From Faecalimicrobium dakarense (lineage in GTDB: Bacteria; Bacillota; Clostridia; Peptostreptococcales; Peptostreptococcaceae): 64,000 bases of DNA. Under the pieces are notes generated by a model. That model saw only the letters and a list, made by a program, of their open reading frames with translations. It searched no databases and was not told where the DNA came from. Both the position numbers and the translations under genes were made by a program. Of this stretch, positions 4,291 through 15,634 are shown piece after piece. The DNA lies in the NCBI RefSeq assembly GCF_000499525.1, contig NZ_HG529270.1, positions 1 through 64,000 on the forward strand, read 5' to 3'. Positions within the stretch are counted from its first letter, which is position 1, and every line of letters begins with the position of its first letter.

Positions 4291-4379
4291 ATTATAGCAA
4301 AACTTTAGCAATGGACCTATATAGGCTGTTGACCAAATAGTTATGCTAAATGAATAAATTTAACTTAGGAGGAAATAAA

Positions 4380-5888
4380 ATGCAAGAAGATAGAGAACAA
4401 TGGGGAACTAAAATTGGATTTATACTTGCTGCAATTGGATCAGCAGTAGGTTTAGGTAATATATGGAGATTTCCTTATGTAGTATATTCAAATGGAGGAG
4501 GCGCATTCTTAATACCGTATTTATGTGCCATATTTACAGCAGGAATACCACTTTTAATATTAGAATACGGAATGGGACATAAGTTTAAAGGTTCAACACC
4601 ACTTTCTTTAGCAAGAGCAAACAAAAAATTTGAATGGATAGGATGGTGGCCGATAATTAGTTCGTCGGTTATATTATGCTATTACTCAATGATACTAAGT
4701 TGGGCAATTAAATACATGACTATGAGCTTTACTAAAGCTTGGGGTCAAGATTCTAATTCATTTTTTTATAATGATTTCTTAAACTTATCAGATTCACCGC
4801 TTAATTTTGAAGGAATAGTTTGGCCGATATTAATAGGTATTGCGATAATATGGATTATAAATTGGTTTATATGTTACAAAGGAATAAAATCAGGGATAGA
4901 AAAAACTAGCAAGATATTATTGCCATCTCTATTAGCAATAATGATAATAATTGTTATAAGAGGTGTTACTTTAGAAGGTGCAAGTGTTGGGTTAAATACA
5001 TTATTTACACCAGATTGGGATAAGGTAAAAAATCCTCAAGTTTGGATAGTTGCATATGGACAAGTATTTTTCTCATTAAGTATAGGTACTGGTATAATGA
5101 TGACATATTCAAGTTACTTACCTAATAAGACTGATATAAATAACAGTGCATTTATGACTGCATTTGCTAACTGTGGATTTGAGTTTTTATCGGCTATAGG
5201 AGTATTTGCAATACTTGGAGTAATGGCTACAAGCCAAGGTTTACCTATGGAAGAAGTTGTTACAGGTGGAATAGGGCTAGCATTTATAGCTTTTCCTAAG
5301 GTATTTACAATGATGGGGATATGGGGAAATATATTAGGAGTTTTATTTTTTTCTTGTCTAGTGTTTGCAGGTATAACATCATCAGTTTCCTTAGTAGAAG
5401 CAATATCATCAGCTATAATGGATAAGTTTGGTGGGGAGCGTAAAAAAGTTGTTACATGTATGTGTTTAATAGGATTTACTGCAAGTATAGTATTTGCAAG
5501 TAATGCAGGTTTATATTTACTAGATATTATGGATAACTTTATAAATAATTATGGAATAGTTGTAGTTGGATTATTAGAAGCTTTTGTTATCGGATGGATA
5601 ATTAAGCCTAAGGTTATAAGAGAACATACAAATAAGATATCTTATTTTAAAATCGGTAAGTGGTGGGATATAATTATAAAATATGTAACACCTACTTTAT
5701 TAACAATAACCTTAGTTCAAAGTCTTATAAATGAGTTTAAAAGTCCTTATGAAGGTTATGATTTAATATCTTTATTATTATATGGCTGGGCTGTTATAGC
5801 CCTTGGAATTATAGGTGGATTATTAATTAGTAAAAAACCTTGGAAGAATAGTAAGTTAGAGAATATAAGTAGTAAGGAGATAGTGTAA
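4380..5888 (+). CDS. Neurotransmitter:sodium symporter (NSS/SNF) family transporter
   Basis: This integral membrane protein imports an amino acid with Na+. It has 502 residues and about 11-12 membrane segments. The N-terminal family signature is clear: WGTKIGFILAAIGSAVGLGNIWRFPYV, the unwound TM1 region that binds Na+ and substrate in LeuT/MhsT. I chose ATG 4380 rather than an in-frame ATG at 4350 because TTAGGAGG lies 7 bases before 4380 and nothing suitable precedes 4350. Its stop is followed immediately by the small-subunit gene. The leader peptide ends in Leu/Leu/Leu/Val/Ala/Asp/Leu/Ile, which suggests a branched-chain or other hydrophobic substrate, as for MhsT; that is inference, and the family also carries Met, Ala, Trp and Tyr. 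Confidence 0.9.
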   Translation: MQEDREQWGTKIGFILAAIGSAVGLGNIWRFPYVVYSNGGGAFLIPYLCAIFTAGIPLLILEYGMGHKFKGSTPLSLARANKKFEWIGWWPIISSSVILCYYSMILSWAIKYMTMSFTKAWGQDSNSFFYNDFLNLSDSPLNFEGIVWPILIGIAIIWIINWFICYKGIKSGIEKTSKILLPSLLAIMIIIVIRGVTLEGASVGLNTLFTPDWDKVKNPQVWIVAYGQVFFSLSIGTGIMMTYSSYLPNKTDINNSAFMTAFANCGFEFLSAIGVFAILGVMATSQGLPMEEVVTGGIGLAFIAFPKVFTMMGIWGNILGVLFFSCLVFAGITSSVSLVEAISSAIMDKFGGERKKVVTCMCLIGFTASIVFASNAGLYLLDIMDNFINNYGIVVVGLLEAFVIGWIIKPKVIREHTNKISYFKIGKWWDIIIKYVTPTLLTITLVQSLINEFKSPYEGYDLISLLLYGWAVIALGIIGGLLISKKPWKNSKLENISSKEIV

Positions 5889-6126: not shown

Positions 6127-6166
6127 AAAATCAAGCTTTGCAGATTCCTGCAAAGCTTGATTTTTT
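6127..6166. terminator. Bidirectional terminator between convergent genes
   Basis: A 17-bp stem (AAAATCAAGCTTTGCAG with CTGCAAAGCTTGATTTT) around a 4-base loop has T residues on one side and A residues on the other. It therefore serves both the symporter operon (+) and the DUF5692 gene (-). Confidence 0.9.
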
Positions 6167-6167
6167 A

Positions 6168-7091
6168 TTATTCAGCAAATTCTTTTACTTCTTCATAGCA
6201 TTTTAAATCTGTATAAAGCTCACCTTTATATGGATTGATTTTTGTTTTTCTTACTTTGTAGATCATATAAACAAATAATGCTACATTAGCAAGAAGTGCA
6301 ATTAAACTTACAATAAATAATGCAGTTGGATTTTGTGTTGATTTAACAGCAAATTGTGATTCATCAATAAATGCAGGGTATGTCATTGCAAACATACACC
6401 AAAGAGCAAGTGTTTGTGCACGATGTTGTAACCAAGCACCTTTCTTAAGTGTAAAAGCAGTTACAGTTGGTGCGATTAGTAATGCAATACCACAGTACCA
6501 AGCATGGTCACCTAAACAGTTATAAGTATATGCAAAGTTCCAAAGATCATAAGCGATAATCCAGAACCAGCACATATCTGGCCATAACATATCCTTGCTC
6601 TTATCTTTACTAATACAGATTCCTACCCAACCTGTGATTGTAATTATATTTAAGATACCTGCAATACCATTTAAGTAGTTCCAAGAACCACTATACAACA
6701 TTATTCCTTCAAATACTTCTTTTGTAAGGCCTAGTGAGCCAATTTGGAAATCACGAGAAACAGCCTCGAGAATATTAATTGCAAGAATTAATGGAGGAAA
6801 ATATAAAACCCATTTATGACTAGTAGCATCTTTTAAGTGACGCATTAGCCAAAAACCAATACATCCTGCTAAAGCAGAATAAACTTTTGCGTAGTGGAAC
6901 CAGTCATTTACACTAGTACCCTTAGTGGTATTAGGCCATACAAATAATGTGAGAATGATTGGTAATATTATAAATAGTGCAACCCCACCCCATTTATAAC
7001 GGCGTCCAATTTCGTTTAATATAATTAATAAAATGAAAATTAAAAATAACATAAGCCAATTAGTAATTGGTTGTGATTCAAATAAAAACAT
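6168..7091 (-). CDS. DUF5692 family membrane protein, copy 1
   Basis: A 307-residue protein with about 8-9 hydrophobic helices and many Trp residues. It is the paralogue of the protein at 11676-12611. Shared blocks are EA-x2-RDFQI (about 109-117), CISKDK, WPDM, the segment IAYD-x-WNFAYTYNC-x2-DH-x2-YCG (C192, D195, H196, C200 here) and KGAWLQHRAQTLALW (about 217-231). The clustered Cys, Asp and His inside membrane-associated sequence could bind a metal; this is inference. The family has no assigned function that I know of. It lies on the opposite strand from the hypB-hypA operon and is separated from it by a TetR gene. Transcription probably starts in 7092-7360. Confidence 0.8.
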   Translation of the reverse strand: MFLFESQPITNWLMLFLIFILLIILNEIGRRYKWGGVALFIILPIILTLFVWPNTTKGTSVNDWFHYAKVYSALAGCIGFWLMRHLKDATSHKWVLYFPPLILAINILEAVSRDFQIGSLGLTKEVFEGIMLYSGSWNYLNGIAGILNIITITGWVGICISKDKSKDMLWPDMCWFWIIAYDLWNFAYTYNCLGDHAWYCGIALLIAPTVTAFTLKKGAWLQHRAQTLALWCMFAMTYPAFIDESQFAVKSTQNPTALFIVSLIALLANVALFVYMIYKVRKTKINPYKGELYTDLKCYEEVKEFAE

Positions 7092-7360
7092 AGTGTTACC
7101 CCCCTAATTAAATATATAAAGTATTGAATCAGGATTATTGTAGCATTATTAGTTAGAAAACGAAACATATTGTTAAAAATTTGATATTTATTGAAAAGTG
7201 TGAATTTTTAGTGTTTATCATGTTCAGATAAATATTTGAATATTCAAGGATAGGGGGATAAATAGTAAGAGAATTTATGTATCTTTTAATTTGATGTATT
7301 AATATAGATTTGGTGGTATGCGCCATACTATAATTAATAATACTTTGATAAAAATTAAAA
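7092..7360. other. Upstream region of DUF5692 copy 1
   Basis: No coding sequence is apparent. It should hold the promoter of the minus-strand DUF5692 gene. GTATG-CGC-CATAC (7316-7328) is a short inverted repeat with a 3-base spacer that might bind a regulator; it stands out as the only GC-containing palindrome here. Confidence 0.35.
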
Positions 7361-7382
7361 AAGTCGCCTCATTAGCGACTCT
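7355..7382 (-). terminator. Terminator of the TetR gene
   Basis: On the minus strand AGTCGC, a 7-base loop and GCGACT are followed by TTTTTT. It lies 7 bases beyond the tetR stop codon. Confidence 0.8.
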
Positions 7383-7388
7383 TTCCAT

Positions 7389-7985
7389 CTAGTTTTGAGT
7401 TTTGAAATTAGAAAGAACTAAGTTTAATTCAAATTCCATTCTAGATTTAAGATTATAACTTCCCTCATGAAGACACCAGTCAAATATGGTACCTCTAGAT
7501 ATTCTCATAATTATCATAGTCAAATCTAATGAAGAAATAGAGCCATTCAATTCACCATTTTTTAGTGAATCTTCCACAATAGATTTAACTTCTAGTGCTA
7601 TATAACGGTCAGGTTTAGTAGAGTACTTTCCTTCTATTGAAAGTAAGTTTTTATATATTTCACTTACAAATACCCAGCCAAGCTCTTCCATCATATTAGC
7701 ACCTTCACCTAATAAAAATAATAATTTATCAAGGTTTGAACAAAAATTTCTTGTTTCAAGTCTATCCATTACCAGAATATCAACTTGCTCATAAGCTGTA
7801 TTAATTATTTCTGCTTTTGATTTGAAATGATGATAAAAAGCTCCTATTGAAATTTCTGCAACTTGACAGATATCTTGAATTTTCACACTATCAAAGCCAT
7901 TTAATTTAAAAAGTTCAGTGGCTACTTGTGTAATTCTAAGTTTGGTTGCAATAGCTTGTTTTTGTCTACTAGTTAATTTTTTCAT
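7389..7985 (-). CDS. TetR family transcriptional regulator
   Basis: The product has 198 residues. The N-terminal helix-turn-helix is typical (about residues 12-58: ITQVATELFKLNGFDSVKIQDICQ, then ISIGAFYHHFKSK), followed by an all-helical ligand domain. I prefer ATG 7985 over the upstream in-frame ATG 8012 because GAAAGG lies 7 bases before 7985 and the HTH then starts at the usual distance. The gene is divergent from hypB and lies between the two DUF5692 loci, so it probably controls this module. A candidate operator is the inverted repeat at 8147-8179 in the divergent promoter region. The inducer is unknown. Confidence 0.85.
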   Translation of the reverse strand: MKKLTSRQKQAIATKLRITQVATELFKLNGFDSVKIQDICQVAEISIGAFYHHFKSKAEIINTAYEQVDILVMDRLETRNFCSNLDKLLFLLGEGANMMEELGWVFVSEIYKNLLSIEGKYSTKPDRYIALEVKSIVEDSLKNGELNGSISSLDLTMIIMRISRGTIFDWCLHEGSYNLKSRMEFELNLVLSNFKTQN

Positions 7986-8146
7986 GACAAATACCTTTCT
8001 ATAGCACTGCAATGTTAATACAGTAAATTATATAATTATTTAGTATAGCATAAAAAGGCAAATATATAATGAAAAGTTGTGAAAGAAAATAAATGAAAAC
8101 TGTAAGTATATATTTACAAAATATGCTAAAACTGCTATATTTTAAT

Positions 8147-8179
8147 TACAGAATAAGATTCGGTGAAATTAATTCTGTA
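8147..8179. promoter_or_regulatory. Candidate operator between tetR and hypB
   Basis: TACAGAAT (8147-8154) and ATTCTGTA (8172-8179) are perfect 8-bp inverted arms separated by 17 bases, in the middle of the 279-base divergent intergenic region. The position fits a TetR or nickel-responsive repressor site. Binding is not shown. Confidence 0.4.
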
Positions 8180-8264
8180 TAAAAATGTTATAAAATTAAC
8201 AAATAGATGATGTAAAATTAAGCAAAATCGAATGGTCCATTAGAAATATTAAGGGGGGAATTTT

Positions 8265-8933
8265 ATGGAAAAATATAAAGTGATTGAGATAAAGGAAAGC
8301 GTTTTTGAAAACAATGATAAACAAGCAGATTTGCTTAGAGCAGATTTAAAGAAAGATAATACTTTTTTATTAAATTTAATGTCTTCTCCAGGTTCGGGTA
8401 AGACTACAACAGTTTTAAGAACTATTGAAGCATTAAAAGATGAAATAAAAATAGGAGTTATGGAAGCTGATATAGATTCAGATGTTGATGCCAATACCGT
8501 TTCAAAAACAGGAGCAAAAGTAATACAGCTACATACAGGTGGAATGTGTCATTTAGATGCAGATATGACCAAGCAAGGTTTAGTAGAACTTGGAACAGAG
8601 GATGTAGACTTTGTAATATTAGAAAATGTGGGGAATTTAGTATGTCCAGCAGAATTTGATACTGGTTCTTCAAAAAACGCTATGATACTTAGTATACCGG
8701 AGGGGCATGATAAGCCTCTCAAATATCCACTAATGTTTTCCATAGTGGATGTGGTTTTAATAAATAAAATTGATGCTATGGAGTATTTTGATTTTGATTT
8801 AGGTTTAGTTAAAGAATATATTAAAAAACTAAATCCAAATATAAAAGTTATAGAAATATCAGCCAAAACTGGCGAAGGTATGGATGAATGGGCAAATTGG
8901 ATAAGAAAAGAAATAAATGTATGGAATCAGTAA
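8265..8933 (+). CDS. hypB: HypB, GTPase for nickel insertion
   Basis: HypB is the GTP-dependent nickel chaperone that works with HypA in maturation of nickel enzymes, classically [NiFe]-hydrogenase. The 222 residues contain the P-loop SPGSGKTT (41-48), the switch/metal region GGMCHLDADM, ENVGNLVCPAEFD (metal-site Cys and G3 region) and the NKID guanine-specificity motif. The N-terminal CxxCGC high-affinity nickel motif and any His-rich stretch are absent, as in many clostridial HypB proteins. AAGGGGGG lies 7 bases before the ATG. It is followed by the oxidoreductase, DUF5692 copy 2 and hypA in the same direction with gaps of only 25-32 bases, so this is an operon. No hypC-F or hydrogenase subunit is near. 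Confidence 0.93.
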   Translation: MEKYKVIEIKESVFENNDKQADLLRADLKKDNTFLLNLMSSPGSGKTTTVLRTIEALKDEIKIGVMEADIDSDVDANTVSKTGAKVIQLHTGGMCHLDADMTKQGLVELGTEDVDFVILENVGNLVCPAEFDTGSSKNAMILSIPEGHDKPLKYPLMFSIVDVVLINKIDAMEYFDFDLGLVKEYIKKLNPNIKVIEISAKTGEGMDEWANWIRKEINVWNQ

Positions 8934-8965
8934 TATAATATAAAATTTTTTGGGGGGAGATTACG

Positions 8966-11650
8966 ATGGGAGTTAAAGAAAAGGTTCTTCAATTTGCAAA
9001 TCAAGTTAGCGGAAAAAAACCAGGATCTAGAGGGTACTTTGATGAAAATGATGCACGTTATAGAGTTTTAGAGCCAGTTGTAACAGATGAAATGGCAGAA
9101 GTTTTACTTTGTATGAAGATTAGACAAAAAACAACAGCTGAGAAAGTGGCACCTTTATGTGGAAAAAGTGTTGATAGGTGCACAGAGTTATTATTAGAAC
9201 TATCAGAAATAGGGGTAGTTTTTGTTAATGAAATAGATGGTATAGATACTTTCTGGTATGAAACTTGGGTACCAGGAATTATGGAAATGATGGTTAATAA
9301 TAAGGAGCAGGCTAAAAAATATCCCCAAATTCCTAAGGCATTTCATGATTATGGTGTGGAAAATGGACCAAAATCTACAGGAAGTTTTCCTCCAGGTGTA
9401 GGACTTATGCGTGTTATTCCAATAGAAACTGCCATAGATGGTGAAACAAGAAGAGCCTCATATGAGGAAATATCAAAATATCTAAATGATAGTGATAAAT
9501 TCTCTGTATCAGATTGTTCATGTCGTACAGCAAGAGAAAGTATGGGAGAAGGATGTGGTCATTTAAAAGAGGATATGTGTATTCAATTAGGCCATGCAGC
9601 TGAGTACTACATAAGAACAGGAAGAGGTAGAGAAATAACTAGAGAAGAGGCTTTTGAAATAATAAAAAGAGCTGAAGAAAATGGGTTAATGCACCAAATA
9701 CCAAACTTAGATGGTTCAGGAAAAACTCATGCCATATGCAATTGCTGTGGATGTTCTTGTTTAGCGCTAAAGGGTGGAAATATGTTTGCAAATACAGACA
9801 TGGTACGTTCTAATTATGTATCTAAAGTAGATAAAGATAAGTGTGTTGCTTGTGGTGAATGTGTAGTAAATTGCCCAACTAATGCTTTGAAACTAGGACA
9901 AAAACTATGTTCCAATAAACCTATTGTAGATAAAATAGAAAGAAAAGAGACACCAAGAAATACTAATTGGGGACCAGATAAATGGAATGAAGATTATAGA
10001 ACTAATAGAGAAGACGTGGTAGAAAGTGGAACAAGTCCATGTAAGACTGCATGCCCTGCTCATATAGCTGTTCAAGGATATATTAAACTTGCATCACAAG
10101 GGAGATACAAAGAAGCTTTACAACTTATAAAACAAGAAAATCCATTCCCAGCTATATGTGGTCGTATTTGTCCTAGAAAGTGTGAATCAGCATGTACAAG
10201 AGGAGATATAGATTCACCAATTGCCATAGATGAAATCAAAAAGTTTATAGCTGAACAAGATTTAAAAGAAGAGCATCGATTCATTCCTAAAAAGAGACAT
10301 AATTATGGTAAGAAGATTGCCATAATAGGTGGTGGACCTGCTGGACTTTCATGTGCTTATTATTTATCAATAGATGGATACAAGGTAACAGTGTTTGAAA
10401 AACAAAAAGCTCTTGGTGGTATGCTAACTTTAGGAATTCCTTCTTTCAGATTGGAAAAAGAAGTAGTTAATGCTGAAATAGAAATACTAAGACAAATGGG
10501 AGTTGAGTTTAAAACAGGTATAGATGTAGGTAATGATATTACTTTAGATGAATTAAGAAAAGAGGGGTATAAAGCTTTCTATTTGGCAATCGGTGCACAG
10601 GCTGGTAGAAGATTGAATATAGAAGGTGAAAATGCAAAAGGTGTTATCTCAGGAATAGAATTTGTACGTGATGTCAATTTAGGAAAAGATATAAAACTAA
10701 GTGGAAAAGTAGTAGTTATTGGTGGAGGTAATGTTGCTATAGATGTGGCAAGAAATGCAACGAGAGTAGGTGCAGATAGTGTAGATATGTTCTGTTTGGA
10801 AAATCGTGAACAAATGCCTGCTTTAGAAGAAGAAATAAAAGAAGCTTTAGAAGAAGAAATAGTAATAAACAACTCTTGGGGACCTAAGAGAATAATTGTA
10901 GAAAATGAAAAAGTAATAGGCGTAGAATTTAAAAAATGTATTTCTGTATTTGATGAAAATGGAAAATTCTCTCCAACGTTTGATGAAAATGATGTAAAAG
11001 TGGTAGATGCTGATTACGTTTTAATTTCAGTTGGTCAAAGTATTGACTGGGGTAATTTACTTAAAGGAAGTAAGGTAGAGTTAAATCCTAACAATACAAT
11101 AAAAGCTGATGGATTTACTTATCAAACAAATGAGTCAGATATATTTACTGGAGGAGATTCATATACTGGTCCTAGATTTGCCATAGATGCCATAGCAGCA
11201 GGTAAACAAGGAGCTATATCAATTCATCGTTTTGTTCAACCAGGACAAAGTTTAGTAAATGGACGTGACAGAAGAGATTATCATGAATTTGATAAGGAAA
11301 GCTTGCAATTAGAAGGATATGACAATATGCCAAGACAAAAACCAAATCATAAATCTGATGTAGAGACAAAAGAATCTTTCAAAGATATGCGTCTTACTTT
11401 TACAGAAAAACAAATGAAAAAAGAGACAGAAAGATGTTTAGGTTGTGGAGCTACTATTGTAGATGAATATATGTGCGTAGGTTGTGGTCAATGTACCACA
11501 AAATGTAAGTTTGATGCCATATCATTAGTAAGAAAATATGATGCAGAAGGTTTAGCTTATGAAGATATGAAACCAGCAGTAGTTAAAACAATTATAAGAC
11601 GAAAAGGTAGAATAATAACAAAGAAAGTTAAGGATGTATTTGTAAAATAA
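8966..11650 (+). CDS. Large Fe-S/FAD oxidoreductase with a GltD-like core
   Basis: A cytoplasmic 894-residue multi-domain redox protein. Order of domains: a small winged-helix-like segment (about 30-95); a Cys-rich region with a CxCR motif (C184, C186, C197, C205, then C258-C265); a ferredoxin 4Fe-4S motif (C293, C296, C299, C303); the N-terminal Fer4 domain of glutamate-synthase small subunit type (C359, C363, C398, C402, C406, C410); the FAD/NAD(P)-binding fold (GGGPAG at 455-460, GGGNVAIDVARNA further on); and a C-terminal CLGCG plus CVGCGQCTTKC cluster. Such GltD-like proteins move electrons between NAD(P)H and Fe-S clusters. Its place between hypB and DUF5692/hypA suggests it feeds electrons to the module's enzyme. 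It is not glutamate synthase: no large subunit is present. Confidence 0.8.
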   Translation: MGVKEKVLQFANQVSGKKPGSRGYFDENDARYRVLEPVVTDEMAEVLLCMKIRQKTTAEKVAPLCGKSVDRCTELLLELSEIGVVFVNEIDGIDTFWYETWVPGIMEMMVNNKEQAKKYPQIPKAFHDYGVENGPKSTGSFPPGVGLMRVIPIETAIDGETRRASYEEISKYLNDSDKFSVSDCSCRTARESMGEGCGHLKEDMCIQLGHAAEYYIRTGRGREITREEAFEIIKRAEENGLMHQIPNLDGSGKTHAICNCCGCSCLALKGGNMFANTDMVRSNYVSKVDKDKCVACGECVVNCPTNALKLGQKLCSNKPIVDKIERKETPRNTNWGPDKWNEDYRTNREDVVESGTSPCKTACPAHIAVQGYIKLASQGRYKEALQLIKQENPFPAICGRICPRKCESACTRGDIDSPIAIDEIKKFIAEQDLKEEHRFIPKKRHNYGKKIAIIGGGPAGLSCAYYLSIDGYKVTVFEKQKALGGMLTLGIPSFRLEKEVVNAEIEILRQMGVEFKTGIDVGNDITLDELRKEGYKAFYLAIGAQAGRRLNIEGENAKGVISGIEFVRDVNLGKDIKLSGKVVVIGGGNVAIDVARNATRVGADSVDMFCLENREQMPALEEEIKEALEEEIVINNSWGPKRIIVENEKVIGVEFKKCISVFDENGKFSPTFDENDVKVVDADYVLISVGQSIDWGNLLKGSKVELNPNNTIKADGFTYQTNESDIFTGGDSYTGPRFAIDAIAAGKQGAISIHRFVQPGQSLVNGRDRRDYHEFDKESLQLEGYDNMPRQKPNHKSDVETKESFKDMRLTFTEKQMKKETERCLGCGATIVDEYMCVGCGQCTTKCKFDAISLVRKYDAEGLAYEDMKPAVVKTIIRRKGRIITKKVKDVFVK

Positions 11651-11675
11651 AAATATAATAGATACGAGGTGCATT

Positions 11676-12611
11676 ATGGGAATTTTATATGAAAAAATGA
11701 CCTTTGAAGGATGGGGAATTTTCCTATTTGTATTACTTGCATTGATGGCATTCAATGAATTTGGAAGATCAACAAAATGGGCAGGTATATTATTATTTTT
11801 AATAGTACCTACATTTTTAACTATTTATGTCTGGCCAACTACAGCAGCACCAGGCAATGAATATGGAACGGGAACTTGGTTTAACTGGGTGAAAACTTAT
11901 TCAGCACTGGCTGGGTGTATTTGGTTTATGGCTCTTAGATATATTCCATCATTACAAAAGAAAAAATGGGCATTAATTCTTCCAGCAGTGATTTTAGCAT
12001 TAAATATATTTGAAGCATCTATTAGGGACTTCCAAATTTTTACTTATGGGTTAACTGATGGTGGAGTTGTAGATAATCTTTGGACAATATCTGGACCTTG
12101 GAATATTATGAATGGTATAGCAGGAATATTAAATATAATTACAATTTGTGGTTGTTATGGAATATTTATATCGAAAGATAAGACAAAGGATATGATATGG
12201 CCAGATATGATATGGACATGGATTATAGCTTATGATGTATGGAACTTTGCTTATACTTATAACTGTATATCAGATCATTCAATTTATTGTGGTGCAGCTT
12301 TATTACTTTCATGTACTATACCAACTTTCTTTATAAAAAGAGGAGCATGGTTACAACATCGTGCTCAAACATTGGCTCTTTGGATTATGTTTGTTATGAC
12401 TGTGCCTCAATTTGCTGATAGAATAGCGCCAGTTGCCACAACGCATAACAAGACAGCGTTCTTTGTAGTAAGTTTAATATCTTTAATTGCAAATGCAGCT
12501 TTAGCGATTTATCAATTTAGTAAAATAAGAAAAAATAAACTTAATCTAATAAAAGATGAAATTTACACAGATACTAATGCTTATAGAAATGTGCTTGCTG
12601 AAAATAAGTAG
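11676..12611 (+). CDS. DUF5692 family membrane protein, copy 2
   Basis: A 311-residue polytopic membrane protein, paralogue of 6168-7091 and co-transcribed with hypB, the oxidoreductase and hypA. The same blocks are present: IRDFQI, FISKDK, WPDM, AYDVWNFAYTYNC-x2-DH-x2-YCG (C197, D200, H201, C205) and RGAWLQHRAQTLALW. This is the only unassigned protein in a nickel-chaperone operon, so it is the natural candidate for the nickel-dependent or nickel-carrying component. That is inference from context and from the conserved Cys/Asp/His set. It could equally be a transporter or an electron-transfer membrane anchor. GAGGTG lies 7 bases before the ATG. Confidence 0.8.
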   Translation: MGILYEKMTFEGWGIFLFVLLALMAFNEFGRSTKWAGILLFLIVPTFLTIYVWPTTAAPGNEYGTGTWFNWVKTYSALAGCIWFMALRYIPSLQKKKWALILPAVILALNIFEASIRDFQIFTYGLTDGGVVDNLWTISGPWNIMNGIAGILNIITICGCYGIFISKDKTKDMIWPDMIWTWIIAYDVWNFAYTYNCISDHSIYCGAALLLSCTIPTFFIKRGAWLQHRAQTLALWIMFVMTVPQFADRIAPVATTHNKTAFFVVSLISLIANAALAIYQFSKIRKNKLNLIKDEIYTDTNAYRNVLAENK

Positions 12612-12637
12612 ATGTAAAACAGGAGTAGGTGAAAATA

Positions 12638-12979
12638 GTGCACGAGCTAGGGGTAGTTATAGAAGTTGTAAAAACAGTGGAAAAAGTAGCGTTAGAAAAT
12701 AATTTAACAAAAATAGATAGCGTGGTATTACAGATAGGAGAGTTATCTTCTATGATACCTAAATATATAAAAAGCTGTTTTCCAGTAGCAGTAGATAATA
12801 CAAGTTTGCAAGACACGAAGCTGAAAATAGAAGTTATACCTGCAAATGGTATGTGTAAAAGTTGCAATAAAGTATTTAATGTAAAAGAAAATAATGGGCA
12901 ATGTATTCATTGTAGCAGTAAAAGGTGGGATTTACTCAGTGGAAAAGAGTTTATAATTAAGGAAATAGTAGCCTATTAA
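12638..12979 (+). CDS. hypA: HypA, nickel metallochaperone
   Basis: HypA binds nickel through its N-terminal Met-His and delivers it with HypB. I chose GTG 12638 although an in-frame GTG at 12629 also exists, because the family must begin M-H-E and this start gives MHELGVVIEVV. AGGTG lies 6 bases upstream. The product has 113 residues. The structural zinc site is present: C73-x2-C76 and C89-x2-C92. The longer start would bury the nickel-binding His2. It is the last gene of the hypB operon; a terminator follows. Confidence 0.9.
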   Translation: MHELGVVIEVVKTVEKVALENNLTKIDSVVLQIGELSSMIPKYIKSCFPVAVDNTSLQDTKLKIEVIPANGMCKSCNKVFNVKENNGQCIHCSSKRWDLLSGKEFIIKEIVAY

Positions 12980-13042: not shown

Positions 13043-13093
13043 TCAATATTGAAATCCACGAAAAGGATATTGATTAATCAATATCCTTTTTTG
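13043..13093 (+). terminator. Second terminator, preceded by a remnant of element A
   Basis: ATTGAAATCCACGAAAA (13048-13064) is the exact 3' half of element A without its 5' arm. It runs straight into the hairpin AAAGGATATTGATT/AATCAATATCCTTT with a T run. The 5' half of the element has been lost or was never present. Confidence 0.7.
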
Positions 13094-13234: not shown

Positions 13235-15634
13235 ATGTTATCTATATATAATAAAATTAGTGACTATATAATAGTATTAAATTGTACGGGGGAAATAATT
13301 TTTTGTAATGAAAGCTTTTTAAAGCGATTAAACTATAATCACGAGGAAATATTAAATTTAAATATAGTTAAAATAATAAGCGAAAATAATAATATTAATA
13401 ATATAGTAAAAGAATCTGGGGAAAAAAACGAAACTTTAGAGTTTTATTCAAAGTCAAATGAACTAGTCAAAATCAATTCAAATATAATCATAGAAGATTT
13501 TAATAATGATAAAAGTATTTTTATTATAGGTAAAGAAGTACAGTCAAAACAATATACGATGGAAATGTTAGAGGATCTTTTAGATAATATTGATACTTGT
13601 GCATTTGTTGTAGATGATTCTGGAAAGTATTTATATGCAAATAAGGTTCTTACTAATTTACTAGGCAAAAAAAGAGAAGATATTATTGGAAGTTATAATA
13701 GTGATAATTGGCATTATGATATTTATAAGGAATTTGAAAAAAATGATAGAGAAGTATTTAAGAATAAAAGCCCAAAGATATTTAATGAAAAATTATTATA
13801 TGATGATATTATTCATTGGTATAAAAGCTACAAAGCTCCAATATTTGATGAAAATGAAAGGCCTAAATATATTGTAGCAACATCTAAAAATATTGATCTA
13901 TCAAAAGCCATATCAGAAGAGTTATATAAAAACTATAATAAAGTAACAATTGAAAATGACTTTAATGAAAATAGTAAAAAGAATGTGGATTTAAATAAAA
14001 TATTAAAAAATATTGGAGAACATATACTTGATTATACAAAAGCAGATGGTCTTTCTATATTACTTTATGATAGTGATAAAGAAGGATTAGTACCTGTTAT
14101 AAAATTAAAAAATGCTAATATAAATTTTAAAAATATAGAATTTATTTCATTTAAAAAAAATGATTTATATTCACATATATATAGAAGATATTTTAATTGT
14201 ATGTTTAAAAAAGCTAAAATGCCTAATTTAGCAAGAACAAATAATAACCGTATGGATAGATTAGATTATGCTGGTAATTATGTAATGGAGTTAAATAATG
14301 AGCTTATTGGATTTATAGGTTTAAGCTATAGCAATGGCAATGCTCCTAAATTTAATAGCGATGAGTATATGAAATATGTATGTAATAAAATAGCCATGAT
14401 GATTAAAAATATCAGACTTTCAAATGAGGTATCTATTGAAAATAAAAAACGTAAATATACAGAAAAAGAGCTAGAACGGTATTTAAATGTTTCAGTTGAT
14501 TTAATAGCTGTAGTAGGAAAGGATGGATATTTTAAAAAACTAAGTTGTAATTGGTGTAATGTTTTAGGATGGACAGAAGAAGAATTATTATCAATGCTAG
14601 TTGTAGATATTATTCATCCTAAAGACTTAGAAATCTTTAGGAGCAGAAAGCAATCAGAGTATATAGAAGGTAAAACTGCTAGAGATATTATTCGATATAG
14701 GCATAAGAATGGAAACTATATTTTTCTTGAATGGAGTGGTGAGTATATAGTTGATGAAGAAGTATATGTAGCAACAGCAAGAGATATTACAAGAAAGTTA
14801 GAAATAGAAAAAGAAAAAAGAACATTAGAAGAAGCAGTCCAGCTAGAGGTTGTAAAAAATGAATTCTTTTCAAATATATCTCATGAATTTAGAACTCCAA
14901 TAAATATTATATTAGGTACTATGCAAGTGATTAACAAAAATATAGAAAAAAATAATATACAAATAAATAGCTTAAAGAAACATACTAACTACATAAAACA
15001 AAACTCATACAGATTATTAAGGTTAGTAAATAATCTAATAGATATAAGTAAAATGGATATAGGAATGTATGAGCTTAGATGTTCTAATCAAAATATTATA
15101 AATATTATTGAAGATATAACTCTATCTGTAGCAGATTATACAAAAAATAATAAAATAAATCTTATATTTGATACAAATAAAGAAGAAGTTATTACATACT
15201 GTGATCCAGATAAAATAGAAAGAATAATGTTAAATATTTTATCTAATGCGATAAAATATACACAAGAGAATGGTTTTATAAAAGTTAAAATTAACTCTAC
15301 ACAAGATGAAATAATAGTTTCTGTAAAAGACAGCGGAGTAGGGATATCAAAGGATAAATTAGATATTATATTTGATAGATTTGGACAAGTAGATAGTTCG
15401 TTTAATAGAAAATGTGAAGGTAGTGGCATTGGACTATCACTAGTGAAAAACTTAGTAGAAATGCATGGAGGGGAAATACATGCAAATAGTGAAGTTAATG
15501 AAGGCTCAGAATTTATATTTAGTATTCCGATTAAGCTAAAAGAAGAAGATAATGATAATGAATATGATGTTGATAGAAAATGTAAACATGTAGAACGATG
15601 TGATATAGAGTTTTCAGATATATATAGTATGTAA
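13235..15634 (+). CDS. Orphan sensor histidine kinase with PAS and GAF domains
   Basis: A 799-residue kinase without signal peptide or membrane span, so it is probably cytosolic. Domains in order: PAS-like (about 1-75), PAS (about 110-230), GAF-like (about 245-400), PAS/PAC (about 410-525), HisKA with the phosphorylated His in SNISHEFRTP (H550), and HATPase with the N box (NILSNAIKYT), G1 (VKDSGVGIS) and G2 (GSGIGLSLVK). The last 30 residues, with HVERCD, lie beyond the catalytic domain. No response regulator is adjacent. In this bacterial group multi-PAS orphan kinases often act on Spo0A or other distant regulators; that link is inference. Confidence 0.9.
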   Translation: MLSIYNKISDYIIVLNCTGEIIFCNESFLKRLNYNHEEILNLNIVKIISENNNINNIVKESGEKNETLEFYSKSNELVKINSNIIIEDFNNDKSIFIIGKEVQSKQYTMEMLEDLLDNIDTCAFVVDDSGKYLYANKVLTNLLGKKREDIIGSYNSDNWHYDIYKEFEKNDREVFKNKSPKIFNEKLLYDDIIHWYKSYKAPIFDENERPKYIVATSKNIDLSKAISEELYKNYNKVTIENDFNENSKKNVDLNKILKNIGEHILDYTKADGLSILLYDSDKEGLVPVIKLKNANINFKNIEFISFKKNDLYSHIYRRYFNCMFKKAKMPNLARTNNNRMDRLDYAGNYVMELNNELIGFIGLSYSNGNAPKFNSDEYMKYVCNKIAMMIKNIRLSNEVSIENKKRKYTEKELERYLNVSVDLIAVVGKDGYFKKLSCNWCNVLGWTEEELLSMLVVDIIHPKDLEIFRSRKQSEYIEGKTARDIIRYRHKNGNYIFLEWSGEYIVDEEVYVATARDITRKLEIEKEKRTLEEAVQLEVVKNEFFSNISHEFRTPINIILGTMQVINKNIEKNNIQINSLKKHTNYIKQNSYRLLRLVNNLIDISKMDIGMYELRCSNQNIINIIEDITLSVADYTKNNKINLIFDTNKEEVITYCDPDKIERIMLNILSNAIKYTQENGFIKVKINSTQDEIIVSVKDSGVGISKDKLDIIFDRFGQVDSSFNRKCEGSGIGLSLVKNLVEMHGGEIHANSEVNEGSEFIFSIPIKLKEEDNDNEYDVDRKCKHVERCDIEFSDIYSM

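Follow-up and report, generated by a model that had tools for sequence, protein, structure and literature searches.

An IsrA-like oxidoreductase encoded with HypA, HypB and DUF5692 in Faecalimicrobium dakarense: a candidate operon for the reduction of conjugated fatty acids

Introduction

What do the nickel chaperones HypA and HypB serve in a bacterium whose genome has no recognizable [NiFe]-hydrogenase? The question is raised by a locus of Faecalimicrobium dakarense (family Peptostreptococcaceae) in which hypB, a gene for an 894-residue oxidoreductase, a gene for a membrane protein of family DUF5692 and hypA follow one another on the forward strand, accompanied by a TetR-family gene and a second DUF5692 gene. 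The locus lies in the first 64,000 bases of contig NZ_HG529270.1, and we refer to this whole stretch of DNA as the window; the operon is on contig 47 of an assembly (GCF_000499525.1) of 3.73 Mb that is 99.96% complete and 3.28% contaminated. The original prediction, made from the letters of the window, had the gene content, order and coordinates of the locus right, and read it as an undescribed nickel-dependent module in which DUF5692 takes part.

We consider it moderately probable that the operon, inducible and under TetR control, serves to reduce the conjugated carbon-carbon double bonds in polyunsaturated fatty acids, with the oxidoreductase, a protein of the IsrA type, as the nickel client. 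We infer the substrate, the nickel client, the electron path, the TetR control and the role of DUF5692 from gene content, the lack of matches to a hydrogenase large subunit or urease, invariant cysteines in IsrA, the recurrent linkage of IsrA with HypA, HypB and DUF5692, and the linkage in relatives to homologues of the fatty-acid isomerase PAI. The pairing of IsrA with HypA and HypB, and DUF5692 as a neighbour, is already known (Kronen et al. 2023, PMC10134865); the PAI linkage of the IsrA-DUF5692 module in relatives, together with an IS481-like companion gene, is new here.

Results and discussion

HypA and HypB in a genome without a hydrogenase match

F. dakarense encodes one HypA, and one strong HypB together with four weak matches of the CobW type. 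The [NiFe]-hydrogenase large subunit (PF00374, NiFeSe_Hases) and urease alpha (PF00449) have no match in the genome, the same searches being positive in five and four of 14 controls respectively, and the absence of a hydrogenase noted in the original prediction is borne out genome-wide for the large subunit. HypC, HypD, HypE and HypF are not encoded near the operon, and no genome-wide search for these four was made. HypA scores 101.9 bits against PF01155 (cut-off 28.9) and falls below the TIGR00100 equivalog cut-off (82.4 bits vs 88.1); Met-His-Glu and two CxxC pairs can be read from its sequence, and the GTG at 12638, which would place Met-His-Glu at the N-terminus, is the more likely start. 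Intergenic gaps in the order hypB, oxidoreductase, DUF5692 and hypA are 32, 25 and 17 bases. In this hydrogenase-free setting HypA and HypB probably serve a nickel step encoded in their own operon.

The oxidoreductase is IsrA-like

Kronen et al. (2023) named this type of oxidoreductase IsrA, a putative isoprene reductase. That paper describes an enzyme of about 900 residues in which a Cys-rich N-terminal region is combined with an FAD/NAD(P)H domain like that of GltD and with additional 4Fe-4S sites. Its gene adjoins hypA and hypB, the genome lacks [NiFe]-hydrogenase, and TetR and DUF5692 genes are found near its homologues. The 894-residue protein is alike in each respect: it has the length, the Cys-rich N-terminus, Fer4_20 and the FAD/NAD(P)H domain, and C-terminal 4Fe-4S cysteines, and its gene adjoins both chaperone genes in a genome with no [NiFe]-hydrogenase match. 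Going by architecture and neighbours, we place it by likeness in clade 9, the clade of the Acetobacterium wieringae protein VUZ27132.1. Among the neighbours of 988 IsrA homologues the same paper gives frequencies of 0.73 for HypA, 0.56 for HypB, 0.40 for DUF5692 and 0.21 for TetR, and the module is therefore not undescribed, as the original prediction had supposed. The two operons nonetheless differ: the five-gene isr operon of A. wieringae has two hypA genes, a 4Fe-4S ferredoxin gene and no DUF5692 (PMC10134865), whereas that of F. dakarense combines a single hypA with DUF5692, lacks a ferredoxin gene, and is not an isr operon in the strict sense.

The middle domain is shared with the GltD, NfnB and AegA family, from which IsrA is set apart by extra cluster regions at both its N- and C-termini, and the operon contains no GltB or NfnA gene. 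The protein fails the GltD equivalog (TIGR01316, 290 bits vs 471.75) and reaches the cut-off of none of the 25 NCBIfam families listed. Relatives that adjoin DUF5692 are 47–96% identical to it. Cys184, 186, 197, 205, 258, 260 and 265 of the N-terminal region do not vary among the 42 sequences compared, some of which are near-copies, and the cysteines of the other clusters are kept in all or nearly all of these (Cys315 in 98%). Kronen et al. regard IsrA as a nickel client, with a Cys6 site proposed to hold the metal. When the N-terminal region was compared by profile with the PDB, no convincing relative was found, the best match (0.03) being a winged-helix regulator. In the model of this region (predicted local distance difference test score, pLDDT, 75.1) the first part is winged-helix-like and the Cys258–265 end is poorly modelled; Foldseek returned nothing for it at 0.001, and VIA-align gave Z scores of at most 7.5, all to winged-helix proteins and over the first part.

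Related N-terminal regions also occur apart from the locus type described here. A Moritella metagenome-assembled genome, from a marine gammaproteobacterium (L246, genome of L167), has two tandem matches at G561:C5:148206-152665, outside the 21 kb around its DUF5692 gene.

Relatives link the module to a fatty-acid isomerase

Forty stretches with DUF5692 were picked from 68 places outside the window and spread over genera, DUF5692 being present in them by construction; weak and fragment matches were kept apart from the counts, and neighbours were counted by tblastn at 60% of the query because calling of open reading frames (ORFs) is poor in high-GC loci. They contain 32 IsrA genes. Within 6 kb, HypA accompanies 29 of these, HypB 27, a PAI homologue 17 and a companion gene likewise 17, PAI homologue and companion never occurring one without the other. 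An eighteenth stretch, L080, carries PAI, companion and DUF5692 without IsrA, and the PAI family is a partner in 18 of the 40. The L080 protein aligns at full length (residues 8–420 to 6–423, E 2.1e-68) with PDB entry 2b9w, which we take to be the linoleate isomerase PAI of Cutibacterium acnes (the PDB record reads putative aminooxidase), and the homologue in L084 is distant from the same structure (E 1.4e-19). Published abstracts describe the reaction of the C. acnes enzyme. No PAI homologue is found in the genome of F. dakarense, nor in 13 more from its family, although 12 of the latter encode DUF5692.

The companion (for example L080:6979-8016, L075:15406-16473 and L084:14337-15332) stands beside PAI in all 18 stretches and resembles IS481 transposases, the three tested giving E values of 8e-42 to 3e-24, all below cut-off. 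Its catalytic triad is degenerate, with the first Asp kept in seven of 18 and the second, presumably to be expected in a TDNG motif, in none. To judge from these sequences the companion is probably a domesticated transposase turned regulator. An oleate hydratase neighbour is reported for two Acetobacterium (PMC10134865); we found none by matching short motif strings to ORFs of 500–640 residues, which is a weak test.

Co-occurrence across the phylum

Among 398 genomes of the phylum, that of F. dakarense included, DUF5692 is present in 11 (in G365 by a fragment), an IsrA open frame of at least 890 residues in eight and a PAI homologue in six, with up to four PAI candidates scored per genome. Seven of the eight genomes with IsrA and all six with PAI have DUF5692, five have both PAI and IsrA, and each of the eight PAI places is at most about 2 kb away from IsrA or DUF5692. 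Fisher P values are 9e-12 for IsrA and DUF5692, 9e-11 for PAI and DUF5692 and 4e-9 for PAI and IsrA by genome, and 4e-10 and 5e-9 for the first two pairs by genus (genus counts tallied by hand), all of them too small because of kinship among the sampled genomes. A further 21 genomes have only shorter matches to the IsrA N-terminal region, 26–40% identical.

A quick tree was made from 127 rows of DUF5692, near-copies included. The label for solo copies needs 11 changes on it, at least five of these being forced by well-supported branches (shuffled mean 39.2), and the solo label of some rows may only reflect contig ends. IsrA without PAI changes nine times (five forced; shuffled mean 28.0) and IsrA with PAI four times (three forced; shuffled mean 16.2). 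The IsrA-DUF5692 partnership has therefore been gained or lost several times, as is expected of genes working together.

As a separate observation on this sample, open frames of 361–438 residues that are 26–40% identical to the IsrA N-terminal region occur in 22 of the 398 genomes (L212–L232 and two further places).

A proposed route for fatty-acid reduction

We favor fatty acids as the substrate because of the PAI linkage in relatives and the linoleate physiology of clostridia and Butyrivibrio. Clostridium bifermentans and Clostridium sordellii are members of the family to which F. dakarense belongs. These two and Clostridium sporogenes convert linoleate to conjugated linoleate (CLA) and then to vaccenate (two reviews, one citing Verhulst 1985), and growth of Butyrivibrio fibrisolvens JW11 is described as starting only after polyunsaturated acids had become vaccenate. 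The CLA reductase of Butyrivibrio (Hughes 1982; Fukuda 2007) is reported to carry out the reaction that we propose here, and is described as membrane-associated with 1:1 use of NADH. Within the titles, abstracts and passages of the open-licence PMC literature we found no paper joining an operon of IsrA, HypA, HypB and DUF5692 to fatty acids, and none naming the genes of clostridial biohydrogenation.

The proposed route would run from linoleate through conjugated linoleate to a trans-monoene, and would serve both detoxification and as an electron sink. HypB and then HypA would load nickel into the N-terminal site of IsrA; NAD(P)H would reduce the FAD, and electrons would pass via the 4Fe-4S clusters to the Cys-rich N-terminal site, where nickel would bind or activate the conjugated diene, the monoene then forming by uptake of two electrons and two protons. 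DUF5692 would be the membrane partner, either isomerising the fatty acid or delivering and presenting it, and would not itself be a nickel protein.

Several points weigh against this reading. The lack of PAI in F. dakarense and the 13 genomes of its family means that the substrate is carried over from relatives, and the kinship noted above reduces the force of the co-occurrence statistics. HypB is lacking near five and HypA near three of the 32 IsrA genes, such that the use of nickel may differ between them, or the chaperones may be encoded elsewhere. The Butyrivibrio CLA reductase has been purified and sequenced (Fukuda 2007) and may belong to another family than IsrA, and PMC10134865 gives distinct functions to other IsrA clades, with terpenes suggested.

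If the reading is correct, it names a client for HypA/HypB pairs without a hydrogenase and provides a candidate for a further nickel enzyme. The PAI linkage supplies a gene set and a testable substrate, and DUF5692 gains its first functional setting. The trans and conjugated fatty acids that end up in milk, meat and the host depend on the biohydrogenation of dietary polyunsaturated fat in the gut and rumen.

The role of DUF5692

The two DUF5692 proteins of the window, the only two in the F. dakarense genome, both pass the PF18948 cut-off of 27 bits (467.7 and 437 bits). Among open-licence PMC papers PMC10134865 is the only one that we found to contain the word; it names DUF5692 once, and we found no role assigned to it in the text. 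The 80 named loci considered here are the best 80 of at least 554 confirmed, are biased to copy b, and include 33 cut by contig ends. IsrA is present in nine of them, HypB in seven, HypA in six, a TetR of the window type in five and a second DUF5692-like gene in ten; 71 have no IsrA within 10 kb, and four of the 47 uncut loci have IsrA. Genomes with solo loci lack an IsrA N-terminal match at E 1e-20 in 22 of 30 cases and have one elsewhere in eight (10 of 32 if two loci picked for having IsrA are counted in). The association with hypA, hypB and the GltD-like gene that the original prediction proposed to follow across genomes is thus real in part of the range, whereas most of the 80 best loci have none of these genes nearby, those of aerobes included.

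Several roles can be considered. In the first, which we regard as quite possible, if short of probable, DUF5692 would act in the membrane as a carrier, flippase or docking subunit, supplying IsrA with fatty acids or some other lipid, and would have different clients elsewhere. Copy b is modelled by AlphaFold2 as a helical bundle with a mean pLDDT of 90.5, which together with the coexistence of DUF5692 and PAI agrees with such a role, as does the resemblance of solo copies with TetR-like neighbours to efflux units. TetR-like genes are often near solo copies, with two clusters in 13 and five loci, of which three were tested; in a Bacillus (L130) the best match of the TetR beside DUF5692 is FadR at 67 bits (cut-off 200), and the likeness of the F. 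dakarense TetR to FadR is weak (E 5.4e-5). However, no transporter fold stands out, and within the 80 best loci the closest copies from Bacteroidota, Spirochaetota and most Clostridium share 68–80% identity with copy b, which is high for a carrier.

It is somewhat unlikely that DUF5692 is itself a membrane-bound isomerase of linoleate double bonds, or a related fatty-acid isomerase, that feeds conjugated dienes to IsrA and in solo copies only isomerises. Residues kept in at least 97% of the 127 rows include N27, E28, R31, K73, N110, E113, N143, N146, D172, D177, W189, N190, Q227 and R229, among many polar or aromatic positions that look enzymatic, as well as W68, F69, W142, W175, P176, Y186, Y193, Y195, Y204 and W225; to our eye these resemble an active site or lipid headgroup pocket more than a metal site. 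Reviews describe the linoleate isomerases of Butyrivibrio and C. sporogenes as membrane-bound, and a B. fibrisolvens genome yielded no isomerase gene. The absence of PAI from F. dakarense and its 12 DUF5692-bearing family relatives, and the TetR-like neighbours of solo copies, also fit this role. Against it, PAI and DUF5692 stand together at 17 of the 32 IsrA loci, and DUF5692 is therefore no simple replacement for PAI. The 80 best loci come in part from Arthrobacter, Cryobacterium, Rhodococcus, Glaciecola and Ferrimonas, and the presence of DUF5692 in aerobes such as Arthrobacter and Rhodococcus is awkward for this role. No fold search matches an isomerase: the best Foldseek E value is 0.11, with none at 0.001, and the best VIA-align Z score is 9.2 (yeast Ste2), the remaining rows, at no more than 7.8, being seven-helix receptors and rhodopsins in a range common for helical bundles; profile comparison with the PDB likewise brought up no match at E 1. 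The boldest form of the idea, which we think improbable, is that the long-sought linoleate isomerase in the membranes of anaerobes is DUF5692, which together with an IsrA-type reductase containing nickel and iron-sulfur clusters makes up a complete two-step biohydrogenation operon whose reductase would found a new class of nickel enzymes hydrogenating unactivated conjugated dienes of fats.

The operon might instead reduce another unsaturated compound, such as isoprene, a terpene or another conjugated hydrocarbon, which we find rather doubtful. Isoprene is a conjugated diene, and the A. wieringae IsrA is induced by it with the highest response (log fold change, LFC, 10.70), terpenes being proposed as substrates (PMC10134865). 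Isoprene reduction is lacking in four other strains of Acetobacterium, however, though such strains encode IsrA homologues (same source), and the PAI linkage points to long-chain fatty acids.

That DUF5692 is a nickel-dependent membrane redox protein or a nickel-handling device, as the original prediction inferred from the operon shared with HypA and HypB, is very improbable and we reject it, since its Cys/Asp/His motif is not conserved and the family so often occurs without IsrA, HypA or HypB nearby. The Cys-x2-Asp-His-x3-Cys motif is present in both copies of the window as described, and across 35 family rows its residues are kept in 30 (Cys), 14 (Asp), 20 (His) and 16 (Cys); the alignment thus does not show the invariance that had been looked for. 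The second motif, given as E-x4-RDF, in fact has the spacing E-x3-RDF; of the 35 rows, 32 keep the E, 30 the R and 26 the F, and the D position holds D in 20 and E in 15. As to what might have spoken against any such module, no hydrogenase was found and the link of DUF5692 to hypA and hypB exists, only in part of the range.

Identical or nearly identical DUF5692 proteins are shared between Peptostreptococcaceae genomes and Romboutsia lituseburensis, Paraclostridium benzoelyticum, P. ghonii, Terrisporobacter mayombei and T. petrolearius. R. lituseburensis DSM 797 (L122) is a further carrier of the operon. On plasmids (72,556 records) the genes are rare, with DUF5692 on two records, the IsrA N-terminus on one and PAI-like genes on two others. 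The DUF5692 records are OY725877.1 (Subdoligranulum variabile, L203), in which an IsrA N-terminal match begins about 3.1 kb upstream of DUF5692, and CP117684.1 (Latilactobacillus curvatus, L202). A distant DUF5692-like family of about 260–300 residues (for example L081:8692-9549 and L183:11052-11945) stands beside DUF5692 in the ten of the 80 best loci mentioned above, mostly in Eggerthellaceae, and also adjoins IsrA in L113, L116 and L117.

Features of the locus

Table 1. Features at the hypB-hypA locus (window positions).
Feature	Position	Strand	Basis
DUF5692 copy a, 307 residues, membrane protein	6168..7091	-	PF18948 E 2e-140
TetR-family regulator, divergent from the operon	7389..8012	-	TetR_N E 2.3e-12
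Promoter-like site 5' of hypB, 10/12, TG before -10 (extended -10)	8113..8141	+	consensus scan only
hypB, nickel-insertion GTPase	8265..8933	+	TIGR00073 250.7 bits vs cut-off 121.2 (passed)
IsrA-like oxidoreductase, 894 residues	8966..11650	+	Pyr_redox_2, Fer4_20, Fer4
IsrA N-terminal region, Cys184/186/197/205/258/260/265; proposed Fe-S/nickel site	8966..9835	+	Cys invariance
IsrA FAD/NAD(P)H domain, residues 450-746	10313..11203	+	Pyr_redox_2 E 2.9e-30
DUF5692 copy b, 311 residues, helical membrane bundle	11676..12611	+	PF18948 E 4.5e-131; AlphaFold2
hypA, nickel metallochaperone, two CxxC pairs	ORF 12629-12979, likelier start 12638	+	PF01155 E 2.7e-29
Terminator-like stem after hypA	13060..13091	+	
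Terminator-like stem after TetR gene	7357-7385		
Terminator-like stem after DUF5692 copy a	6127-6164		

The promoter scan is weak, with 24 sites in total, fewer than the 43.9 in shuffles, and another site at 10/12 is intragenic. Terminator-like stems number seven, with 2.3 expected. The locus is flanked by genes for an SNF-family sodium symporter (4350-5888) and a PAS-domain histidine kinase (13235-15634).

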